Shown in pieces: positions 6,677 to 57,322 of a stretch of 64,000 bases of DNA; position 1 is the stretch's first letter; every line of letters begins with the position of its first letter. A program made the translations under genes and the position numbers. Below the pieces are notes generated by a model. The model saw only the letters and a program-made list of their open reading frames with translations. It was not told the DNA's origin and made no database searches. Source of the DNA: Clostridium cylindrosporum DSM 605 (GTDB lineage Bacteria > Bacillota > Clostridia > Clostridiales > Caloramatoraceae); contig NZ_LFVU01000028.1 of the NCBI RefSeq assembly GCF_001047375.1, forward strand, positions 1 to 64,000, in the 5' to 3' direction.

Positions 6677-7663
6677 TCATATTATAATGTTTATCTTTTC
6701 TTTACATTCATTACATCTTCCTTCACTAATATGAACTTTTGTACTATAACCATTTCTATTAATAAGAAGTGCTCCACACTTACTACAGTAGGTATTGTTA
6801 TCAACGCCACCTACATTACCTATATACACATGCTTTAAATACTTTTTAGCTTCATTTTGAGCTTCAGTTATTCTCTCTATCTTTGTTGCCTCATTCTCCA
6901 TTTTGTACCTAGGAAAATACCTACTTAAATGTAGAGGTATATTTTCATTAACGCTTGCTATAAATTGAGCTATTTCCTTAGCTTCCTCTAAGGAATCATT
7001 TTCATCACTTACAAGTAATGTTGTTATCTCAACATGACAATGATCATTACATCTTCTGATAGTTTCAAGTACAGGATTCAAATTCGCACCACATACCTTG
7101 TTATAGTACTTATTAGTATATCCCTTTAAATCAATATTCATAGCATCAACGTAGGGTAAAAGCTTCCTTAGAGGCTCTTCATTTATATAACCATTAGATA
7201 CTACTACTACACTTGTATCCTCATTATCCTCCTTGATTTTCTTAGAGGCATCGCACATATATTCATACCACATCATCGGCTCATTATATGTAAAAGCAAC
7301 CCCAACATTATTTTCTATTGTAGGTATAATTCTTATTAAGTCCTCTGCACTAACAAACTGTGTTGATGGCCTATTTTGAGATATCTCATAGTTTTGACAA
7401 AAACTACAGGTCATATTACAGCCAAAACTTCCAATAGACAATATGTTTTTCGAAGGCTTGTAATGGTATAAAGGTTTCTTTTCTATAGGATCAACTCCAG
7501 AGGATGATACCTCTCCATAGTTTATTGCTATAAGTTCTCCATCCTTAACTGTGCGAACTTTGCATACTCCGAACTTTCCTTCATCTATCAAACAGTTATG
7601 TGGACATACTCCGCATCTATTTCTTTCTTCTTTTTTCTCATAGAATAAAACTTTTGTGTCCAT
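6677..7663 (-). CDS. amrS: AmmeMemoRadiSam system radical SAM enzyme
   Basis: 328 aa, PflA-like radical SAM protein. N-terminal zinc-type cysteines (CGVCPHNC, GVCKVR), a GSFGCNMTCSFCQNYEIS segment with the CxxxCxxC [4Fe-4S]/SAM motif at about residues 81-88, and a C-terminal CSKCG...CNEC pair. It starts 3 nt after the stop of the upstream amrB-amrA fusion, so the two are co-transcribed. This conserved trio (AMMECR1, Memo, radical SAM) is widespread in anaerobes; its substrate is not established, with roles in radical modification proposed. Confidence 0.9.
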   Translation of the reverse strand: MDTKVLFYEKKEERNRCGVCPHNCLIDEGKFGVCKVRTVKDGELIAINYGEVSSSGVDPIEKKPLYHYKPSKNILSIGSFGCNMTCSFCQNYEISQNRPSTQFVSAEDLIRIIPTIENNVGVAFTYNEPMMWYEYMCDASKKIKEDNEDTSVVVVSNGYINEEPLRKLLPYVDAMNIDLKGYTNKYYNKVCGANLNPVLETIRRCNDHCHVEITTLLVSDENDSLEEAKEIAQFIASVNENIPLHLSRYFPRYKMENEATKIERITEAQNEAKKYLKHVYIGNVGGVDNNTYCSKCGALLINRNGYSTKVHISEGRCNECKEKINIII

Positions 7664-24725: not shown

Positions 24726-25029
24726 TTATTCTGTAAACAAGTTTTCCATTTGCTTTTTCGATTCCTGAGATAATGCATCGCTAAGATAATTCCGGCTTAC
24801 TCCCTGAATTTTTTCTTGCTCCTCCCTAATCTTCTTATTTGTATTCTCCACCTCGGCCTTCAGTTCTCTGGCGGACATCAACAAACACCCTTCGCCCCTG
24901 ACGATTACTTGCTGCAAGCCGTCTGAGGTTGCAACCACTATATTGTATTTTTTGCTATTGTCATGAGCGAATTTTTCAATATATTGGTCAGCTGTCTGGG
25001 CCGTTGCCAAAAATCTATAAAAATCTATA
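24726..25029 (-). CDS. 3' exon of the Tet(M)-like GTPase: C-terminal part of the NYN (YacP-like) domain
   Basis: In frame this encodes IDFYRFLATAQTADQYIEK then VVATSDGLQQVIVRGEG and LMSARELKAEVE, which is the second half of a YacP/DUF901 NYN domain (AQTADQYIEK and ATSDGLQQ are conserved). The first half lies at the 3' end of the upstream exon (EYLLVDGYNIIFAWPE ... VVFDAYRVEGHREE) on the other side of the IStron. A TTG at 25010 could start a separate polypeptide but has no RBS. I read it as the downstream exon of one gene joined by intron splicing. Confidence 0.8.
25003..25027 (+). repeat. Terminal inverted repeat of a short palindromic element, one arm
   Basis: 25 nt beginning GTTGCC and ending AAAAATCTA, matching the reverse complement of 26895-26919 at 22 of 25 positions. 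It flanks the IStron on the 3' exon side. Confidence 0.6.
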
Positions 25030-25164
25030 AATTCTGTTTAATTCCCTATTCAACCTACCCTATTTCAAATATCCGAAAATATTCTACTTTAGTTTGATGT
25101 AATAGTCCAAGGGCGTAAATTCCGATACAACGAATCGTACATATCAGTAATATCTTTTTTGTGA
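25030..25164 (-). ncRNA. IStron 3' end, putative omega-RNA scaffold
   Basis: Region from the tnpB stop to the right end, with a small hairpin CGAT-tcgttgt-ATCG and GC-richer segments unlike flanking DNA. In tnpB elements this segment is the guide RNA scaffold, with the guide taken from the flanking host sequence (here the 3' exon). Assigned by position, not by a recognised consensus. Confidence 0.45.
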
Positions 25165-26298
25165 TTAACTTACTAATTTATACTTAGATAGATTAATAGC
25201 AGCATTTAAGTCTCTGTCTATATTTAATCCGCAGTCTATGCAGCTATAAGTTCTGTCTGAAAGCTTTAAATCTTTTTTAGTGGCTCCACATGAACTACAT
25301 GTTTTAGATGATGCATACCATTTATCAGCTTGAATAAACTCTATACCGTTAAATTTACACTTATATTTCATTTGACGTATAAATTCATATAGGCATTGAT
25401 TTGCAATAGCTTTTGATAAATGTTTGTTTTTCATCATACCTTTAATATTTAAATCTTCCATAACAACCCTGTAAGGTTTTAACTTAACTATCTTATTCGT
25501 TGTTTGATGAATATGATTGTTTCTAATGTTTGTTAGCCTTCTATATATTAACTTTATTTCTTTTTCAAGTTTAATAATGTTATTAGTCTTAATAAAATTA
25601 GAACCGTTTTTATTCATTTCATACTTTCTCGAAACTTGTCTTTGTAATCTTTTAAGTCTTTTATTCAATCTTCTAACTTCATATGATTTATTAATGTTTT
25701 TAATTGGTTTATCTAAACAGCTAACGAAAGCTAAGTTTTTAATTCCTAAATCTATTCCTATTGATAAATCCTCATTTAACTCGATTTGGTTTTCACCTTG
25801 TTCAAAGCCTAATGTTAGGTACCAGTACTTACCATCAAAATGACACCTAGGGTTATTATATTTAGATAAACTAGGTATCTTATAATTAGTTTTATAATTT
25901 ACCTTACCTATTTTCTCTAAATTCACCTTATTATCTTCAAATTTAATAGCATCATATCTAACATAAAAGCTTTTTCTGGATTTTTTCTTAGATTTAAATT
26001 TAGGATAGTTAGATTCCTTTTTAAAGAATTTCTTAAAAGCATCATCTAAGTCACCAAATGCTTGTGCAGTAACCTGAGCGCTTACTTCATAAAGCCATTT
26101 ATATTCTGGTTGCTTTTTAACTGTATTATTAAATTCTTTCTTAATTGTAGACTTAGATGGTTTTGAACCTTGATTATATAATTCACTCCACTTGTTAAGT
26201 CCCCAGTTATATGCGAATCTAGCTATACCAACAGATTTAAACATTAATTCTTCTTGCTCTTTTGTTGGTAGTAATCTAATTTTTATGGCCTTTATCAT
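25165..26298 (-). CDS. tnpB: TnpB RNA-guided nuclease of the IStron
   Basis: 377 aa from the ATG at 26298, placed after AAGGAGGTGAGATA; an upstream in-frame start at 26316 overlaps the RBS. OrfB_IS605 fold: N-terminal IKIRLLPTKEQEELM, FAYNWGLNKW; RuvC-like catalytic residues all present, D183 (SIGIDLGIKNLAF), E281 (VVMEDLNIKGM), D362 (NIDRDLNAAINL); zinc finger C334-x2-C337...C353-x2-C356 (CSSCGATKKD...CIDCG). Nothing is truncated, so the nuclease should be active. TnpB cuts the donor site after excision and preserves the element. Confidence 0.93.
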   Translation of the reverse strand: MIKAIKIRLLPTKEQEELMFKSVGIARFAYNWGLNKWSELYNQGSKPSKSTIKKEFNNTVKKQPEYKWLYEVSAQVTAQAFGDLDDAFKKFFKKESNYPKFKSKKKSRKSFYVRYDAIKFEDNKVNLEKIGKVNYKTNYKIPSLSKYNNPRCHFDGKYWYLTLGFEQGENQIELNEDLSIGIDLGIKNLAFVSCLDKPIKNINKSYEVRRLNKRLKRLQRQVSRKYEMNKNGSNFIKTNNIIKLEKEIKLIYRRLTNIRNNHIHQTTNKIVKLKPYRVVMEDLNIKGMMKNKHLSKAIANQCLYEFIRQMKYKCKFNGIEFIQADKWYASSKTCSSCGATKKDLKLSDRTYSCIDCGLNIDRDLNAAINLSKYKLVS

Positions 26299-26469
26299 TA
26301 TCTCACCTCCTTGCATACTTATTGTACCAAATAGTTATCACATTATTGACAACCAATTTTTGTAATAAATACTTTGAGGTGATAAAATTATCTCTAATAT
26401 TAGATTACTTATAAAATACAAAGACATTTTTTAAACAAGTTATTTATATATATTTATAGATTTTTGACT

Positions 26470-26869
26470 TTATTCAATAGTATTCGTCATATACTACCAG
26501 TTCTCCTATGAACTTCTTATGCTTTCACATAAGCGTAGACTATATCATTACCTATTTCTAGGTATCCCCCACTTCCACTATCATTATTGACTTATAGTGT
26601 ACTTCCCTTCGGAATAGTCGTTGAAGTTTATTCATATCCATTGGACTTAGAATCTTACCTGCTGATTGCCTATTATTTAAAGCACTTAGGATTTAACCTT
26701 ATGCTATCTTAGTACTTTTTTCTGCTTTCGCAACATTCAAGCTTATCTTTTCAGATTACTTTGTAGTGTACTAAGCTTTAAGGGTTTCCAGCAATTCAAG
26801 GGATTTTGGATGGCCATTGCCACCACTCCATGCTCTTTATGAACATGGGAGGCTGTTGACAATTTTAAT
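26470..26869 (-). ncRNA. Group I intron ribozyme of the IStron
   Basis: Core elements in order on the minus strand: P (AATTGCTGGAAACCC, 26782-26796), Q (AATCAGCAGGTAAG, 26654-26667), R (TTCAACGACTATT, about 26613-26625) and S (AATGATATAGTCTACG, 26534-26549). R and S pair through GACTAT/ATAGTC as P7 does. A P2-type hairpin (CCTCCCATG...CATGGaGTGG) lies near the 5' end and a P9-like hairpin (GTAGTAT...ATACTAT) near the 3' end. Splicing anywhere equivalent to collapsing the 17-nt repeat restores the host reading frame. Confidence 0.88.
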
Positions 26870-29300
26870 ATCTATAAAAATCTATATGTTTTATTAGATT
26901 TTTATAGATATTTTGTAACTGTTCGGTTACCTCTTTAGTAAATACCATATGTATATTGTGATAGTCCACTATTTCCTCACGATGACCCTCAACACGGTAA
27001 GCATCAAAAACAACAACAATTTCTTTATTGTGAAAACCTTTATAATCACTTAGGATATCAAGTAATTTTATTCTGGCACCATCCATATTATCCTCTGCCA
27101 GTTCACTTAACTCTGGCCATGCAAAGATAATATTATAACCATCCACAAGAAGATATTCTTCTTTATTTGTATAATCTCTAGAAACAAAGTTTGATGTAAC
27201 AGGTTTGTAATAAGCTGCCCTAGCTGGCTTATAACTTTTCCATGCAGATTTCCTTCCCTGGTTGGCATAGTAGGTTTGATTGATTATCTTATCAATCTCA
27301 TCAGGGCTAATGAAACTCTCTTCTGTATATGCAGCTTGTTTTTGCATTCCTGAGCAGGATAACTCTTCTTTTTTATCAAAATAACTTTCTAAATGCATGT
27401 AATCCTTCACATTATTCCATTCAACAATAAAACCTGAACCTTGGGCACAGAATACAGAACTAGCCGTATTTCCAATGTCTCTTTCAGGATCATATGCTAT
27501 GCGCTCTATGACATCCTCAGAATTATGACAGGGCTCATATCCTTTTAAACTGCAAAAGAGCCTGCCAGTACCTTTGGTATAAGCAATCACTTCTTTTTGA
27601 TAATTTCTCATACCACTAACTGGGGCACTTCCAACTAAAACTGCGGTTTCACCGTCTGAATGAGCTATTTCGCAGGTACCATGAATTTTGTCAACATCAG
27701 TCATGGCTCTTCCTAACATTTTCTCAGGCAATTCAAGCTGAAAGGAGTAGTAAGGCTCCAACAAAACAGATTTAGCCTCCATTAAGCCCTGACGTACTGC
27801 ACGCCAGGTGGCCTCTCTAAAGTCACCGCCTTCAGTATGCTTATTGTGTGCTCTGCCAGAGACTAAAGTGATTTTCATATCAGTAATCTCCGAACCTGTT
27901 AAAACTCCTTTATGAACTTTTTCTTCAAGATGGTGTATAACTAAGTTCTGCCAACTCTTGCCTAGTATATCTTCACTGCATTTAGTTTCAAACACTAAAC
28001 CGCTTCCTATCTCGCCTGGCTCCAATAAAAGGTGAACCTCAGCATAATGCCTAAGGGGTTCAAAATGCCCTACTCCCTCAACTATATTTGCAATTGTTTC
28101 CTTATATACAATTCCTCCTGCATCAAAGGATACATCAACATCAAAACGGCTTTGTATCATGTTCTGAAGGATTTCGATCTGAACCTCACCCATAATACGA
28201 ACCTGAATCTCCTGCAACTGCTCATCCCACACAATATTAAGTTCTGGGTCCTCCTCTTCAATCTGACGTAGTTTAGGAATCATTGCTCTTGGGTCGCATC
28301 CCTCGGGCAGTATCATCTGATAGGACAATACAGGTTCAAGCACCGGAGCATTTGAAGCTTCCTCTACCCCTAGGCCTTCTCCTGGTCTGGCCTGACTTAG
28401 CCCTGTAACTGCACATATAGAGCCCGCTTCTATCTCACTTATTGCTTCAAATTTATTTCCAGAATATATGCGTATCTGATTTATTTTCTCTTCCCAGCCA
28501 TGATTGGATAGAACATCCTTTACCTTTAGCTTTCCACCGGTAACCTTCAAGTGAGTAAGGCGATTTCCCTGGTCATCCCTGGTTACTTTGAATATCTTAG
28601 CCCCAAATTCATCTGGATAAGAAGGTATTATAGTATAATCAACAATAACTTGTATCAATTGCTCAATGCCTTCCAATCTTAAAGCTGACCCGAAAATACA
28701 TGGAAATACCTTTCTACCCTTAATAGCTTCCCTAATCTGAACAGTTTCAATATGTTCTGTTTCCAGAAAGGTTTCCATCATGCTTTCATCACACATGGCC
28801 AGCTGATCGTAAAAGCCTTCTGTCTTTACCTGTTCAAATTCAACACATCCGTCATTTAGTTTCTTTTTCAATTCTTCTATTAACCTATCCTTATCCGTGC
28901 CACTTTGATCCATCTTGTTCACAAAAATAAAAGTAGGAATCTCATACAGTTCCAGAAGCCTCCAGAGAGTCCTTGTGTGTCCCTGAACACCATCTGCACC
29001 ATTTATAACTAGTATGGCATAATCTAATACCTGCAGTGTCCTCTCCATTTCAGCGGAAAAATCCACATGTCCTGGAGTATCCAGCAAGGTTATCTGATAC
29101 CCATTGGTTTCAAATATTGCCTGCTTGGAAAAAATAGTGATACCCCTTGCCCGCTCCAGCTCATAGGTATCCAAATATGCATCTTTATTATCTACTCTTC
29201 CTAATTTTCTAATCTTACCACTCATATAGAGCATACCCTCTGACAAGGTTGTCTTGCCCGAATCAACATGAGCTAATATTCCAATGACTATTTTTTTCAT
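26870..29300 (-). CDS. 5' exon of a Tet(M)-like ribosomal-protection GTPase fused to a NYN domain
   Basis: EF-G-like translational GTPase of the TetM/TetO family: AHVDSGKTT (G1, residues 10-18), RGITI (G2), DTPGHVDF (G3), NKMD (G4), followed by domains II-V. Compared with Tet(M) (~640 aa) it has a C-terminal extension of which VDGYNIIFAWPE and EIVVVFDAYRVEG are the start of a YacP-like NYN endonuclease domain. The rest of that domain is at 24726-25029. Without splicing the ORF reads through the palindromic element and stops inside the IStron at 26865, giving 811 aa. Such fusions are annotated in clostridia as tetracycline-resistance-like translation factors; whether it protects from tetracycline is not known. 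Confidence 0.85.
26895..26919 (-). repeat. Terminal inverted repeat of a short palindromic element, other arm
   Basis: Minus strand begins GTTACA and ends AAAAATCTA; partner of 25003-25027. Without the IStron the two arms make a palindrome of about 60 bp that is translated in frame inside the NYN domain. Confidence 0.6.
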
Positions 29301-29685: not shown

Positions 29686-32619
29686 CTAAGATTTATTTTT
29701 TCTAGCATCAATAATTAAAGTGTCTCCTATGTTGTAGGTTATCAAATTTATATCTTTCAAGACTTGACTCATTCGCTTTCTATCTAGCCTACTCACAACT
29801 TCACCAGTATAGTTACTATATTCCGTGGTAAAATTGTAATATTCATTTTCCACAAACATTTTCAACTCTATATGTTCATTATCTAATTCTAGACTTTCAT
29901 GGAATGCTTTACCTAAGTATTCCATTGCTTTAATAATATTACCGTTATCCCCCAATGTTTTGTAGATTAAAAACAAATTCTCAGTAATTATTGCATTATT
30001 CCTTCCTTTATTGCTCTTATTAATTGTATGAGCTTTGTTTAACTTATCAAGCGCCTTGTTATAATTAGAACTTTTATAATATATGTATCCCATTTTCATG
30101 TAGCACCATGATACCTCGATACTCTTTTCTCCAAAAGTACTTGAACTAGAAGACAATAGCTCCTTGCAAAAGTTAATAGCATCACTATATTCTTCAAGAT
30201 CAATTAGTGCGTCAATTACAATTCTAGTCTTTTCTATAGTAAGTTTAGAATTATTCCCATATATATCTTTATATTTCTTAATAGCTTCTTTATAATTCTG
30301 TATTGCATCACCTTTATTACCAACCTTTTCATGCGCAATTGCAAGATTGAACTCACTATCAATGATGATAGGATGCATTGGTTCATATAGCTTTTTTCTT
30401 AAATGATAGGCTTCGTTAATATTTATTATATACTTATCTTCTCTCTTTCTCTTAAGTGCAATATATGCTTTTAATTCTAATGTATCTGCATATAGCTTAT
30501 TTTCTGTCCCATAATGCTTAATTACTAAAGGTTCTATCTTATCTATCAAATTTTCCAGTTGATCTATCTCGTTAAGATTAAGTAGACATATCCCTAGATT
30601 AATCTTTTTTACTAGTAATTCTTTGTGTGATTTAGGATAAAATGATTCATCAATACTTATTGCTTCCATATATAAATTATATTCTTCATTATGTTCTCCC
30701 AATGAACTTAAAAGAACAGCCTTATTGTTTATAGCTTTTGAATAATGTAGACTTTTCTTAGTATAGATCTTTTCTGCTAAACTAATAGCCTCATCAATAT
30801 GAGATCGTGCTTCTTCATATTGCCCACTTTTAGTTTCTAAATCACAAATATTACATAAAATTGTTATTTTGGATTTTTCCATATCATCGAACTTTTCTAA
30901 TTCTTTAAGACTTTTCTTTAGATATATAATAGCCTGAAAGTAATCTCCTCTTTTTTTGAATAAGTTCGCAATATTATTTAATATTATAGAAACATTTCTT
31001 TCATCGTTATCCGCTCTTAATCTATCCAATGTTCCTAGATAAATATCTTGAGCCTTATCATCTTCTCCTAATTCTATCATAATACCTGCAAGAAGTACTG
31101 AAGCCATATTTAAATGATTATTTTCACTATCACCATAGTGATTAAATATGTCATATGCTTTTTGAGCATATGACATGGCTTTTTCTGTTTGCAAAAGTAA
31201 TTTAAAAGCAATTGCTCCTTTATATAAAAGCTCTGCAATAAGTCTTTTTTCTTGCAGGCAATCTCCATATATTGTTATATTATCCACTAAAGCTTCAAAA
31301 TGAGAAATTAGACTAAAACTATCTATAATTTTTACTTCATCTAAAAAATTATTTGGGAAGATGTTACAAAAAAGCTTTAAGGCTAGTAACATAGTCTCAT
31401 TATTTTCATTAGTATCTCTTAAAATAGCTTTTATTGATTCTATTATTAAACAATGTATAGATATATTGGACTTAGATAATTCTATTAATGAATACTTATT
31501 CAAGTTAGCAAGTGCATTATTTAAATTTAAAATATCTACATTTGTATCTAACACTTCTTCTAAGATAGTAATCTTGTTTTCAACGATTCTTCTTGGGAGA
31601 CTGTCTGGAGATAAAAAAGCAAATATATACATCAAATTCTTGCTAAGATTATTCTCTTTTGATATAGCATCTAGTCCAATTTGTCCTACAGATTTTATTG
31701 TATATTCATAATCTTTACTTGGTTCTCCACTTTCTAATACATCCATCTTATACTTATTATATAGTTCTACATAGTCCCTAAAGCCTATTTTGTTATATTC
31801 AATATATGATGCAGCTTGTACTAGTGCTATTGGCAAATTTCCTAGTAAATTCCCGACAATCTTAGCCCATTCTCTATCTTCTAATTGAGTTCTTTCTAAT
31901 AAAAAATCTATCGCTGTTTCTTCGTCAAACGGATTAATTTTCATAGGAGGTGTAAGTTCATTCCAATTAGAATTTTTTGATGTAATAATTATACTTAGCA
32001 TATTATCATACTCGATAGGCAAGTAATCATATATCATTTTATAATCAATTGCATCATCAAATATAAGCAATACTCGTTCTGTATCTAATACTTTGAAAAT
32101 AACCTCTTGTATAATAGTATCCACAGTTTTATTTTCATAGCCTAGCTTTAGATATTTAGCTAACTCCAAGAAGCTTTTAAGAATTTCCTCTTTTGAGCTA
32201 CACTTTATCCATGCAACTAACTTATAATGTTGCTTATTATCAATAGCATACTTTAATGCAAGTCTCGACTTTCCTACCCCGGGTAGTCCAGTTATTACTT
32301 GAATTTTATTCTTCAATAACCTATCTTTCAAGTCCCATAGTTCATTATCTCTTCCACAGCATTTCATATTTCTTATCTGCGGTACAAAAAAGATTTGTTC
32401 ATCATTTGAAGTATCTTGGTTGATAGAACTTCCATATATATATTTTTCTATATATATTCCATTGTTTATATTTATTTGCCTGTGATTTTCTTGTGTTCCA
32501 AAATTACAATTTTCAACAGTGTTAAAATTACTATCCTCAAAGTTTATAACTTTTTTATTATTAATTCTCCCAAATAAGTTTCCAATAATATGTCTAAATA
32601 AATATTTATTTTCTCTCAT
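29686..32619 (-). CDS. NB-ARC/TPR STAND ATPase (NLR-like), probable immune sensor
   Basis: 977 aa from the ATG at 32619 (the in-frame TTG at 32631 is an alternative). Residues 18-45: an Asn/Gln-rich motif, RINNKKVINFEDSNFNTVEN then NFGTQ. Residues ~88-400: NB-ARC with GLPGVGKS (Walker A, 111-118), VLLIFDDA (Walker B), IIITSKN and GNLPIALVQAA (GxP motif). Residues ~450-930: many TPR units (e.g. ALKLFCNIF, AQKAYDIFNHYGD, IYLKKSLKELEKFDD, ALDKLNKAHTIN). Bacterial NB-ARC-TPR proteins oligomerise on sensing phage and activate an effector. No enzymatic effector domain is fused; the small membrane protein encoded just upstream (14-nt overlap) shares the N-terminal motif and is the likely effector. 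Confidence 0.85.
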   Translation of the reverse strand: MRENKYLFRHIIGNLFGRINNKKVINFEDSNFNTVENCNFGTQENHRQININNGIYIEKYIYGSSINQDTSNDEQIFFVPQIRNMKCCGRDNELWDLKDRLLKNKIQVITGLPGVGKSRLALKYAIDNKQHYKLVAWIKCSSKEEILKSFLELAKYLKLGYENKTVDTIIQEVIFKVLDTERVLLIFDDAIDYKMIYDYLPIEYDNMLSIIITSKNSNWNELTPPMKINPFDEETAIDFLLERTQLEDREWAKIVGNLLGNLPIALVQAASYIEYNKIGFRDYVELYNKYKMDVLESGEPSKDYEYTIKSVGQIGLDAISKENNLSKNLMYIFAFLSPDSLPRRIVENKITILEEVLDTNVDILNLNNALANLNKYSLIELSKSNISIHCLIIESIKAILRDTNENNETMLLALKLFCNIFPNNFLDEVKIIDSFSLISHFEALVDNITIYGDCLQEKRLIAELLYKGAIAFKLLLQTEKAMSYAQKAYDIFNHYGDSENNHLNMASVLLAGIMIELGEDDKAQDIYLGTLDRLRADNDERNVSIILNNIANLFKKRGDYFQAIIYLKKSLKELEKFDDMEKSKITILCNICDLETKSGQYEEARSHIDEAISLAEKIYTKKSLHYSKAINNKAVLLSSLGEHNEEYNLYMEAISIDESFYPKSHKELLVKKINLGICLLNLNEIDQLENLIDKIEPLVIKHYGTENKLYADTLELKAYIALKRKREDKYIININEAYHLRKKLYEPMHPIIIDSEFNLAIAHEKVGNKGDAIQNYKEAIKKYKDIYGNNSKLTIEKTRIVIDALIDLEEYSDAINFCKELLSSSSSTFGEKSIEVSWCYMKMGYIYYKSSNYNKALDKLNKAHTINKSNKGRNNAIITENLFLIYKTLGDNGNIIKAMEYLGKAFHESLELDNEHIELKMFVENEYYNFTTEYSNYTGEVVSRLDRKRMSQVLKDINLITYNIGDTLIIDARKNKS

Positions 32620-32773
32620 TCTGATCACCAAAATTATTATCTTTGATAATATTAAAGTTACTCTTATTTAAATTAATTACTTTTTTATTATTAAATCGCT
32701 TTGCAGAATAAATAATAGTAATTAATATCCCAGCTACTCCTAGTATTACCCCTATTAACAAGCTTGTATCCAC
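32606..32773 (-). CDS. Small single-pass membrane protein paired with the NB-ARC gene
   Basis: 55 aa from the GTG at 32773, which is 7 nt after GGAGG; the ATG at 32779 is too close to the RBS. MDTSLLIGVILGVAGILITIIYS is almost all one membrane helix, followed by a basic boundary (AKR) and a tail FNNKKVINLNKSNFNIIKDN then NFGDQNERK. The tail aligns without gaps with residues 18-45 of the NB-ARC protein (16 of 28 identical: NNKKVIN, SNFN, NFG, Q). Stop TAA at 32606 lies inside the NB-ARC gene start, so translation is coupled. Proposed role: membrane-disrupting effector recruited through the shared motif. Unannotated size class; function is inference. Confidence 0.75.
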   Translation of the reverse strand: MDTSLLIGVILGVAGILITIIYSAKRFNNKKVINLNKSNFNIIKDNNFGDQNERK

Positions 32774-37355: not shown

Positions 37356-37369
37356 CATGGTGGAGGCGA
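37350..37369 (+). repeat. Attachment-site copy at the ssrA 3' end
   Basis: GGGTTTCATGGTGGAGGCGA, matching 33232-33252. Together they bound a 4.1-kb island. Confidence 0.75.
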
Positions 37370-37984
37370 GGGGACATGTTCTTCCACTATCTCTAATGGC
37401 ACTGACTATATCTTTAGCTCCAAAATATTTACTTGTAGCTACTTGGCGTATTATAGAAGTATAATATAGTTTTTACCTTCTATCCTAGTATCTCATATCA
37501 TAAGATTTAGAGACCTATAAGTCGATAAGGAGCTGTTAGGTTTCCCTACATACCCCTCGGTATTGCCGGTAGCATTACCTACTACGGTTTCACCGATAAA
37601 GCCAAGTTTTCACTTATGAATTACTTCATAAGGCGACTCTTTTCAAATCGAACCCCTGTCCGAAAGCATAAAAACTTAAGCATCTCCGAGTGCAGTTCTT
37701 GTTTTGAGATTCCCCCTATCTATCGCCCAAGAACAGGCTATAGATTTCGGTAGCTTCATAAATTCCGTTCCTATCTCAAAGCTTTGACAGGCGCGTTTCC
37801 CCACTTATTTGACACCCTGGTCCTAAGCTGTGGGAAGCCTAGGCAGGATGAGCTGCAACTAGGCAGCTAATGCGTAATTTTCGTTTTTTGCGTTTATATT
37901 TAAGTTCCCAGTTTTTAACGAGGTACAGGTCCTCGACTCGCTTCCTAAGCTCCTACTACCCCCGTCGAATGCCTTGACGCCCCC
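37358..37984 (-). ncRNA. ssrA: tmRNA gene, interrupted by an intron in the T-loop
   Basis: 5' GGGGGCG (37978-37984) pairs with 3' CGCCTCC before CCA (37358-37360). The tag reading frame GCAAAAAACGAAAATTACGC... encodes AKNENYALAA and then TAG, ending in the LAA degron expected for ClpXP. Pseudoknots surround it. The tRNA-like T-arm (AGGGG TTCGAT) is cut after TTCGAT at 37647 and resumes with TCCCCTCGCC at 37374. Without the 272-nt insert the mature RNA is about 355 nt, a normal tmRNA length. smpB is the next gene upstream, as usual. Confidence 0.95.
37375..37646 (-). ncRNA. Group I intron in the tmRNA T-loop
   Basis: The 272-nt insert begins after a U (exon 1 ends CGAU) and ends in G, as group I introns do. 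P1: exon CGAU pairs with internal GUCG (about 11 nt into the intron), with U-G at the splice site. P2: CTTATGAA-gtaa-TTCATAAG. A GTAGGGAAACCTAACAGC segment and an S element (AAAGATATAGTCAG, about 37414-37427) are present, with GACTTATA upstream able to pair with TATAGTC as P7. No ORF inside. Removal restores a perfect 5-bp T-stem with TTCGATT loop. Confidence 0.9.
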
Positions 37985-53401: not shown

Positions 53402-54709
53402 TTACTTAACTTCAAAAACTGTTTGTTCTGTTACTGGAGTTTCAAGCGCCTTTAAAGCAACTTCTGTAAGCTTTCTTCTTAGTGCCTTTTCATCTGCTGC
53501 TGAAAGGTTTGGATTTCCAAGTGGGTGAGGAATAGCTATTGTTGGAACTATTCTGTTTGCCCCTACAGTTTTAGATATAGGTACTATTGTACACATATGA
53601 ACTATTGGGAGACCAACTCTCTCAATTTCTTTAAGCATTGTTGCACCGCAACGTGTACAAGTACCTCATGTAGAAGTTAGTATAACTGCTGTTACATTGT
53701 CTTCTAGTAGCTTCTTTGCAATTTCTGCTCCAAAAGCCTTTGAACTCTTAACAGCTGTACCATTACCAGTAGTTGTATAATAGTACTCATGAAGACTTCC
53801 AATTTGCCCATTCGCTTCCATTTCTCTTAGAATATCTACTGGTATAACCCTATCTGCATCTTGATTAGCATATGTTGGGTCATATCCACCGTGAGCTGTT
53901 TCACTATCGGCAGAAGTAAGATCCTTCATTCCTGCTATACTATATTGACCATATTTTTGAGCATTTGAAGCCTCGATTCTATCTGGGTTACCCTTTGGTA
54001 CAATACCGCCTGAAGTAACAATAGCAATTCTTGCCTTTGTTATATCAGCTACTGGTGTTGCAGGATCTACTCTATCGAAGTTAGGCATTTCAAATTCTGT
54101 TACAAATTCTTCACCTTTAAGCTTTTTAACAAGCATGTCAACTGCTCTTTTTGATCCTCTTTCGCTAGCAAAGTAGTTAACTCTAATACCTCTTTCAAGA
54201 TATCCTTCTTCATCTGGTGAAGCTACAGCTTCACCTTTAGCTAATTTAAGAGCTAAAGCTGCCATTTTAGGAGCTGCTTCTCTCATTCCTGCTGCACTGT
54301 TCTTAGTTGATATTATATAAATATCTTTTTTAAACATATCAGCACCTGGATTTTCAACATACATACCTGTTACTACTGGTATGTTAAGCTCATCTTGAAC
54401 CTTTTTAGCTATAGCTCCACAGGCTGTCCCATATCTACCTGCATTAAATGCTGGTCCTGCAATTAAAACATCTGGGTTTTGTGCTTTAATCATTTCAAGA
54501 ATATCTTTTTCAGCTTGTTCTTGATTTTCAGCAAAATATGAGTCTCCACAGATTACTGTTGCAACAATTTCTGCTTCCCCATTAAATGCTTTAGTTAAAG
54601 CCATACCTGGTCCTACTACACCTTCTCTAACTTCAGGTGCAACATGAGCCATTTCTTCCCCCCCAATATTAGCGAAGAATTGGTTTATATAGTGTACTAC
54701 ACGAATCAT
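53402..54709 (-). CDS. grdB: Glycine reductase protein B gamma subunit, selenoprotein
   Basis: 435 aa when the TGA at 53666-53668 (codon 348) is read as selenocysteine. The context VILTST-U-GTCTRCGATMLKE is the known GrdB active site. N-terminal VVHYINQFFANIGGEEMAHV is standard. Protein B, made of GrdB and the two GrdE pieces, activates glycine as a Schiff base and passes the carboxymethyl group to selenium. Simple ORF calling would break this gene into 347- and 78-codon pieces. Confidence 0.97.
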
Positions 54710-57167: not shown

Positions 57168-57312
57168 TAAAAAAAGAGAATGTATCGCCTACACTCTCAA
57201 ATTTAAGAGCTGTGTCCATAAGTAGTCCCTTTGCCTGAAAGATCATTAACAAGGACTTTGTTAACTTACCCCTTCGGCGCTTTGAAAATTTCAAAGTCTC
57301 TCCTACTTACTT
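57168..57312 (-). promoter_or_regulatory. Glycine riboswitch (single aptamer) with transcription terminator
   Basis: Minus strand: P1 TAAGTAG (57304-57310) pairs with CTACTTA (57219-57225). Between them are GGAGAGAC, the hairpin CTTTGAAA/TTTCAAAG, the conserved core CGCCGAAGGGGTAA, a hairpin GTTAACAAAG.../...TTGTTAAT, and CTTTCAGGCAAAGGGAC, all in glycine riboswitch order. Downstream, GAGAGTGTA-ggcga-TACATTCTC followed by T7 (57168-57198) is an intrinsic terminator. CTCTTAAATTTGAGAG just before it can form an alternative hairpin using the terminator's 5' arm, i.e. an antiterminator. Predicted to switch the grd operon on when glycine is abundant. Confidence 0.93.
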
Positions 57313-57322
57313 CATCCAGAAA

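Follow-up and report, generated by a model that had tools for sequence, protein, structure and literature searches.

How can a gene that is split within a nuclease domain still yield its complete protein, and where exactly does the DNA that splits it begin and end? These questions are raised by a locus of Clostridium cylindrosporum DSM 605, at positions 24726-29300 of a 64,000-nt stretch (positions 1 to 64,000 of contig NZ_LFVU01000028.1), here called the window; coordinates without a contig name refer to the window, and all features located by them lie on its minus strand. The gene encodes a fusion of a Tet(M)-like translational GTPase with a YacP-type NYN domain, and it contains, on its sense strand, a 1,929-nt IStron (25001-26929) that consists of a group I ribozyme, an intact tnpB gene without tnpA, and a RAGATH-18 guide-RNA scaffold. 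We consider it very probable that this is a group B IStron, of the IS607 or GG type, possessing open reading frame (ORF) B only, which inserted after GAGG without target duplication, is spliced exactly from the host transcript, and makes a guide RNA in competition with splicing. The kind of element, the guide RNA and the host fusion were all known already; what is new is that they occur together at this site, with a set of relatives that makes the case easy to test.

The interrupted gene and its uninterrupted relatives

The 5' exon (26930-29300) encodes a Tet(M)/EF-G-like GTPase (Pfam GTP_EFTU, EFG_III, EFG_IV and EFG_C; the match to NCBIfam tet_protect is below its cut-off) and the first part of the NYN_YacP domain, ending ...HMVFTKE-G. 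The ORF as it stands in the genome (26865-29300, 811 aa) stops abruptly within this domain, and its last approximately 20 residues (...VTEQLQNIYKNLIKHIDFYRY) are encoded by the IStron. The remainder of the domain (...AQTADQYIEKF...) is found on a 94-aa ORF (24726-25010), the host part of which, stop codon included, is the 3' exon (24726-25000). The upstream ORF matches positions 1-76 and the downstream ORF positions 76-165 of the Pfam NYN_YacP model, and thus no part of the domain has been lost. An earlier note on this DNA, made without database searches, was right in describing a NYN domain broken into two halves, with a group I ribozyme and an intact tnpB as the only transposase-type gene between them. 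VDGYN and FDAY lie on one side of the insertion and the motifs TADQ and TSD on the other, and an unspliced message would therefore give a GTPase with an incomplete nuclease. Joining of the exons at GAGG|CCCAG yields VFTKEAQTADQYIEKF and an 881-codon frame, in which, according to Pfam, the EF-G-like Tet GTPase is followed by a complete NYN_YacP domain.

Fusions of Tet GTPases and YacP-like NYN RNases have been reported in clostridia (Atkinson 2015, PMC4342817). The host gene has the same domain fusion; unlike it, none of the proteins in that report's account of the clostridial fusions is described as carrying an IStron. Many uninterrupted versions exist. A relative from the same family has an empty site (...ATGGTATTTACCAAAGAAGCACAAACTGCAGACCAG, VFTKEAQTADQ), and in 11 more relatives, drawn from the class, the corresponding residues are T(K/R)E(A/S)QTAD; the comparison with empty sites proposed in the earlier note has therefore yielded 12 uninterrupted relatives, with the two halves in frame. 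Among the 391 genomes drawn from the class, the C-terminal part of the host protein was matched in 132 at E <= 1e-60, in many of them across the whole NYN domain, and about 40 class members align with nearly the full query at an identity of at least 55%, while an IStron in a Tet-NYN gene was seen in the window's genome alone. In one genome (G138) the contig with the Tet-NYN gene (C82, end at 7240) stops one base past GAGG, which may be chance or may mark a polymorphic insertion where the assembly broke. The idea that this gene, too, carries an IStron there was rejected, as the contig continues like an empty site; a search of the G138 genome found no IStron copy, only weak matches to the tnpB region.

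Boundaries of the element and assignment to group B

The junctions in the window read GAGG|TAAC...CAACGG|CCCAG, and the element (TAACCG...GGCAACGG) can be delimited to 25001-26929, instead of the 1.84 kb given in the earlier note, because three comparisons agree: the ends of a sister copy, the starts of relatives at GG|TAAC, and the 12 empty sites. The sister copy, which had been overlooked before, is a second full IStron on contig C4 (C4:162353-164261) with 89% identity to the window element over the full length; GAGG and TTTTTGGCAACGG mark the start and the end of the homology in each of them. The relatives are named elements retrieved via TnpB; in all 15 whose left end could be read the start is GG|TAAC, and the majority have ...CAACGG| or ...CGTATCGG| as their end. 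The motif GAGG (26930-26933) thus precedes both copies in this genome, with GG before the other relatives, and it is the insertion site, the end of the 5' exon and the presumed target-adjacent motif (TAM) of TnpB at the same time. The opposite terminus, GGCAACGG (25001-25008), would also contain the 3' splice site. The C4 copy joins its own host gene in frame at TGGAGG|ACAAATG; judged by look, this gene encodes a putative secreted glycoside hydrolase-like protein.

IStrons are known across Firmicutes and Fusobacteria, so that the earlier reference to C. difficile and C. botulinum was true but incomplete, and fall into two groups; elements with ORF B only, such as CsISt1, are included in the survey (Tourasse et al. 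2014, PMC4227781). In its description of group B (BcISt1, CbISt1-4, LsISt1 and SrISt1), these elements occupy a GG-ending site such as GAGG, their introns start with U after an exon G and end with CGG, and they have a long AU-rich inverted repeat, a 3' direct repeat, a group I intron and TnpB. The window element shares all of this. Its insertion site ends with GG and has not been duplicated, as seen from GAGG at both copies and from the empty sites; the 5' exon ends with G and the intron starts with U (GAGG|TAAC), again in agreement with the empty sites; the 3' terminus is CGG (CAACGG); the group I intron is located at the 5' end of the element; and ORF B is present (NF040570, 293 bits). The AU-rich inverted repeat is an imperfect palindrome (26867-26912) that was recognised as an opposite-strand self-match. 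It holds one copy of a 17-nt direct repeat (26870-26886), the other copy of which (25013-25029), conserved in the C4 element, forms the 3' direct repeat. Both copies are thus subterminal and internal to the element, which rules out that they represent a duplicated target.

The element differs from the group B members described in the survey in its host gene, in the RAGATH-18 guide RNA, which does not figure in the survey's account of this group, and in the complete absence of ORF A. An IS607-type ORF A was found neither within the element nor, above the cut-off, elsewhere in the genome. This does not bar membership, because the survey itself lists members with ORF B only and with a truncated ORF A. 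CsISt1 of Clostridium sporogenes also possesses ORF B only, but, unlike the window element, it has an AG site and a CAG end. Thus, the element is a well-preserved addition to the group B IStrons.

The ribozyme and the evidence for splicing

The ribozyme core (26516-26852) was missed by the default Rfam scan of the window and was recovered with more permissive filters, at 84.2 bits and E 1.8e-21 (gathering score 50); it was classed with the general group I model RF00028, which completes the Rfam check that the earlier note had suggested. Group B introns are expected to belong to subgroup IA2. The internal guide sequence (IGS) GCCUCC (26848-26853) is predicted to pair with the 5' exon end GAGG|U, with a U.G wobble at the first intron base. 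It also fits the target class, since most elements at GAGG sites have (A/G)CCUCC, which pairs with GAGG and the first U of the intron (with the wobble where the first IGS base is G), and elements at TGGG sites have UACCC.

The secondary structure has been maintained during evolution. Seven related IStrons were aligned, and the 48 pairs named in P2, P2.1, P3, P4, P6, P7, P8 and P9 showed standard pairing in 96.7% of the cells; both-sided changes occurred in 14 of the 48 pairs, compared with a mean of 6.7 in shuffled alignments and 0-3 when the partner strand was slid. Between the window and C4 copies, the ribozyme is 97% identical and the spacer 77%, at a synonymous divergence (dS) of tnpB of 0.46 and a nonsynonymous divergence (dN) of 0.06. 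Furthermore, 14 of 16 elements (the two copies in this genome and 14 relatives) are located in or near the start of an ORF in sense orientation, with one frame open across the joined site; the other two comprise an ambiguous case and an element that lies a short way before an ORF, so that no clear antisense insertion was seen. The probability of finding all 14 in sense orientation is 6e-5 at face value, and it is weakened to about 0.007 after allowing for the fact that GAGG, AAGG and TGGG are commoner on sense strands.

It should be noted that the in-frame joining of the exons is in itself weak evidence for splicing, since the halves around any insert that has not duplicated its target will be in frame once it is removed. 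Helix covariation, ribozyme conservation, the fit of the IGS and intragenic insertion in sense orientation together suggest that the element splices, as does the group B element BcISt1 in vivo in B. cereus, after G (PMC4227781).

In the pre-mRNA, the IGS GCCUCC would pair with the GAGG at the end of the 5' exon and the first U of the intron, attack by guanosine would lead to cleavage after GAGG, and the 3' cut would follow the terminal G of ...CAACGG, so that ligation of the exons would restore VFTKEAQTADQYIEKF. The proposal of the earlier note that splicing could repair the split Tet(M)-like/NYN gene is retained in this form, but not the mechanism given for it, the collapse of the 17-nt repeat (see below).

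TnpB, its guide RNA and the competition with splicing

The tnpB gene (25165-26316) encodes 383 aa, or 377 aa from the alternative start MIKAIK, and the protein matches NF040570 (guided_TnpB, 293 bits) as well as the Pfam families Cas12f1-like_TNB, OrfB_IS605 and HTH_OrfB_IS605. The RuvC motifs GIDLG, MEDLN and IDRD and the zinc finger CSSCG/CIDCG are present, and dN/dS is about 0.13 compared with the C4 copy. Directly downstream of the stop codon at 25165, a RAGATH-18 motif (25042-25113; RF03064, 62.7 bits), absent from the earlier note, is the predicted guide-RNA scaffold, also called right-element RNA (reRNA) or omega RNA. RAGATH-18 is the guide-RNA scaffold of IS607-type TnpB proteins, and the TAMs of those TnpBs are AGGAG or GAGGG (PMC11061315). 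The window pair has much in common with these systems (ISFba1 and others), namely a TnpB of about 380-390 aa, a presumably G-rich TAM and a RAGATH-18 that is situated downstream of tnpB without overlap; unlike them, it is part of an IStron and is known from its sequence. The GAGG flank is compatible with the known TAMs. With a 20-nt guide 3' of the scaffold, as described for these systems (PMC11061315), the predicted guide would be CCCAGACAGCTGACCAATAT (24981-25000), the 20 nt with which the 3' exon begins.

From an unspliced transcript, TnpB could thus be translated and the RAGATH-18 guide RNA derived, with the 3' exon as guide. The TnpB ribonucleoprotein would be expected to cleave an empty allele (TAM GAGG followed by CCCAGACAGCTG...), favouring retention of the element, and to spare the right junction of the occupied allele, where AACGG precedes the guide match. 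Splicing would strip the guide from its scaffold, and consequently splicing and guide-RNA production would compete for the same 3' end. An IStron study that appeared in Science in 2024 reportedly found that the group I intron and the TnpB guide RNA share the 3' end of the element, which is also the arrangement seen here.

The locus offers a clean test case for this conflict. The four bases GAGG mark the place of insertion and form the exon end that the ribozyme reads, and they are presumably the TAM too; the guide would also be supplied by the 3' exon. Both splicing and self-targeting should be directly measurable, because two copies that have diverged by 11%, intact host halves and many uninterrupted relatives are available.

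Alternative explanations

Several points weigh against the interpretation as a spliced IStron with an active TnpB, and some of them speak for a rival explanation, in which the insertion has simply inactivated the nuclease half, with an intact ribozyme that splices too weakly and the 811-aa GTPase with its truncated NYN domain as the only product. Splicing at this locus is deduced from sequence features, and the activity of TnpB and its TAM are predictions. Exon position -5 is occupied by G in the C4 copy but here by an A that has no pairing partner in the IGS, so that five positions are paired instead of six. The insertion could be recent: dN compared with the empty relative is 0.19 for exon 2 and 0.15 for exon 1, and conservation of exon 2 would be seen in a spliced gene and after a recent insertion alike. 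The dN/dS of exon 2 was set aside as proof of splicing, as dS is saturated against the sole close relative. In addition, the genome, which is 96% complete, has no recognisable gene for an IS607 TnpA. A supply in trans was considered, but the three genes with a Resolvase domain are other serine recombinases or below the IS607 cut-off. As with other ORF-B-only IStrons, the absence of a recognisable TnpA makes present mobility doubtful, and the element may be immobile now. Nevertheless, the ribozyme core is strongly conserved, the relatives are mostly found in genes and on the sense strand, and exon 2 has neither frameshift nor stop and is under about the same constraint as exon 1. Inactivation by a plain insertion is therefore regarded as unlikely.

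A bolder variant of the splicing interpretation would turn the IStron into a regulated switch, with the unspliced message giving the 811-aa GTPase devoid of the C-terminal NYN half (TADQ, TSD) and the spliced message giving GTPase plus RNase. If this were true, the splicing efficiency would decide whether a ribosome-bound factor can cut RNA, and the YacP activity of the cell would be under ribozyme control, the only other yacP found in the genome looking like a pseudogene. We regard such a switch as very unlikely. The stand-alone yacP, next to an rlmB-like gene (C8:1104-1460), is interrupted by two in-frame stop codons, seems to have lost an internal segment and appears to be a pseudogene. For this reason the Tet-NYN fusion, if spliced, may be the sole source of YacP activity, which makes a test of splicing more worthwhile but is no proof.

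The earlier note had taken the 17-nt repeat as the boundary of the element (25029/26870), with its collapse joining the halves as ...HIDFYR-FLATAQTADQY. The repeat is real, and its collapse removes 1,857 nt, a number divisible by three, so that the frame is restored. However, the C4 copy and the relatives place the ends outside the repeat, at GG|TAAC and CGG|, the 5' instance of the repeat deviates in the C4 copy, where it reads TATAAATTCTTTATAGAT, and repeats of this type have been described as the 5' inverted and 3' direct repeats of group B IStrons in the survey's treatment of that group (PMC4227781). The empty sites refute this junction: VFTKE-AQTADQY is expected, and the 24 foreign residues that the collapse would add are absent from the uninterrupted relatives. 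This reading is hardly credible any more, and the locus warns against taking the most eye-catching flanking repeat for the end of an element. An assembly artefact, in which a repeat was chimerically joined into the gene, has a negligible probability. Multi-copy elements can be mis-assembled, and the other copy is on contig C4, but both flanks join perfectly to the gene of the uninterrupted relative, and two copies with only 89% identity are not assembler duplicates.

Other introns and features in the genome

Further group I introns were observed in this genome. In the window, the tmRNA gene (37360-37975), which was missed by ARAGORN, has a T-loop that is interrupted by a group I intron (GGTTCGATT|...|TCCCCTCGCCTCCACCA); group I introns in tmRNA genes are already known (PMC11915505). 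The dnaE gene for the alpha subunit of DNA polymerase III (C28:318500-325500) contains three group I introns, the middle one of which has a ribozyme related to that of the IStron and a GGAG|CAAC site. A third IStron-like element, on contig C24 (approximately 270700-273100), encodes a different TnpB-like protein of 462 aa and, judged by look, splits a putative nitroreductase-like gene (...NKQPW|RTRVVVDG...); its ends, GGAG|CAAC ... TAG|, are reminiscent of the AG-site type to which CsISt1 belongs.

The window also contains a SECIS_4 element (53628-53665) and a glycine riboswitch (57213-57315), which suggest that genes for a selenoprotein and for glycine metabolism are nearby. Adjoining the host gene, a 981-aa ORF (29686-32631) encodes, by look, a putative NB-ARC/TPR protein.

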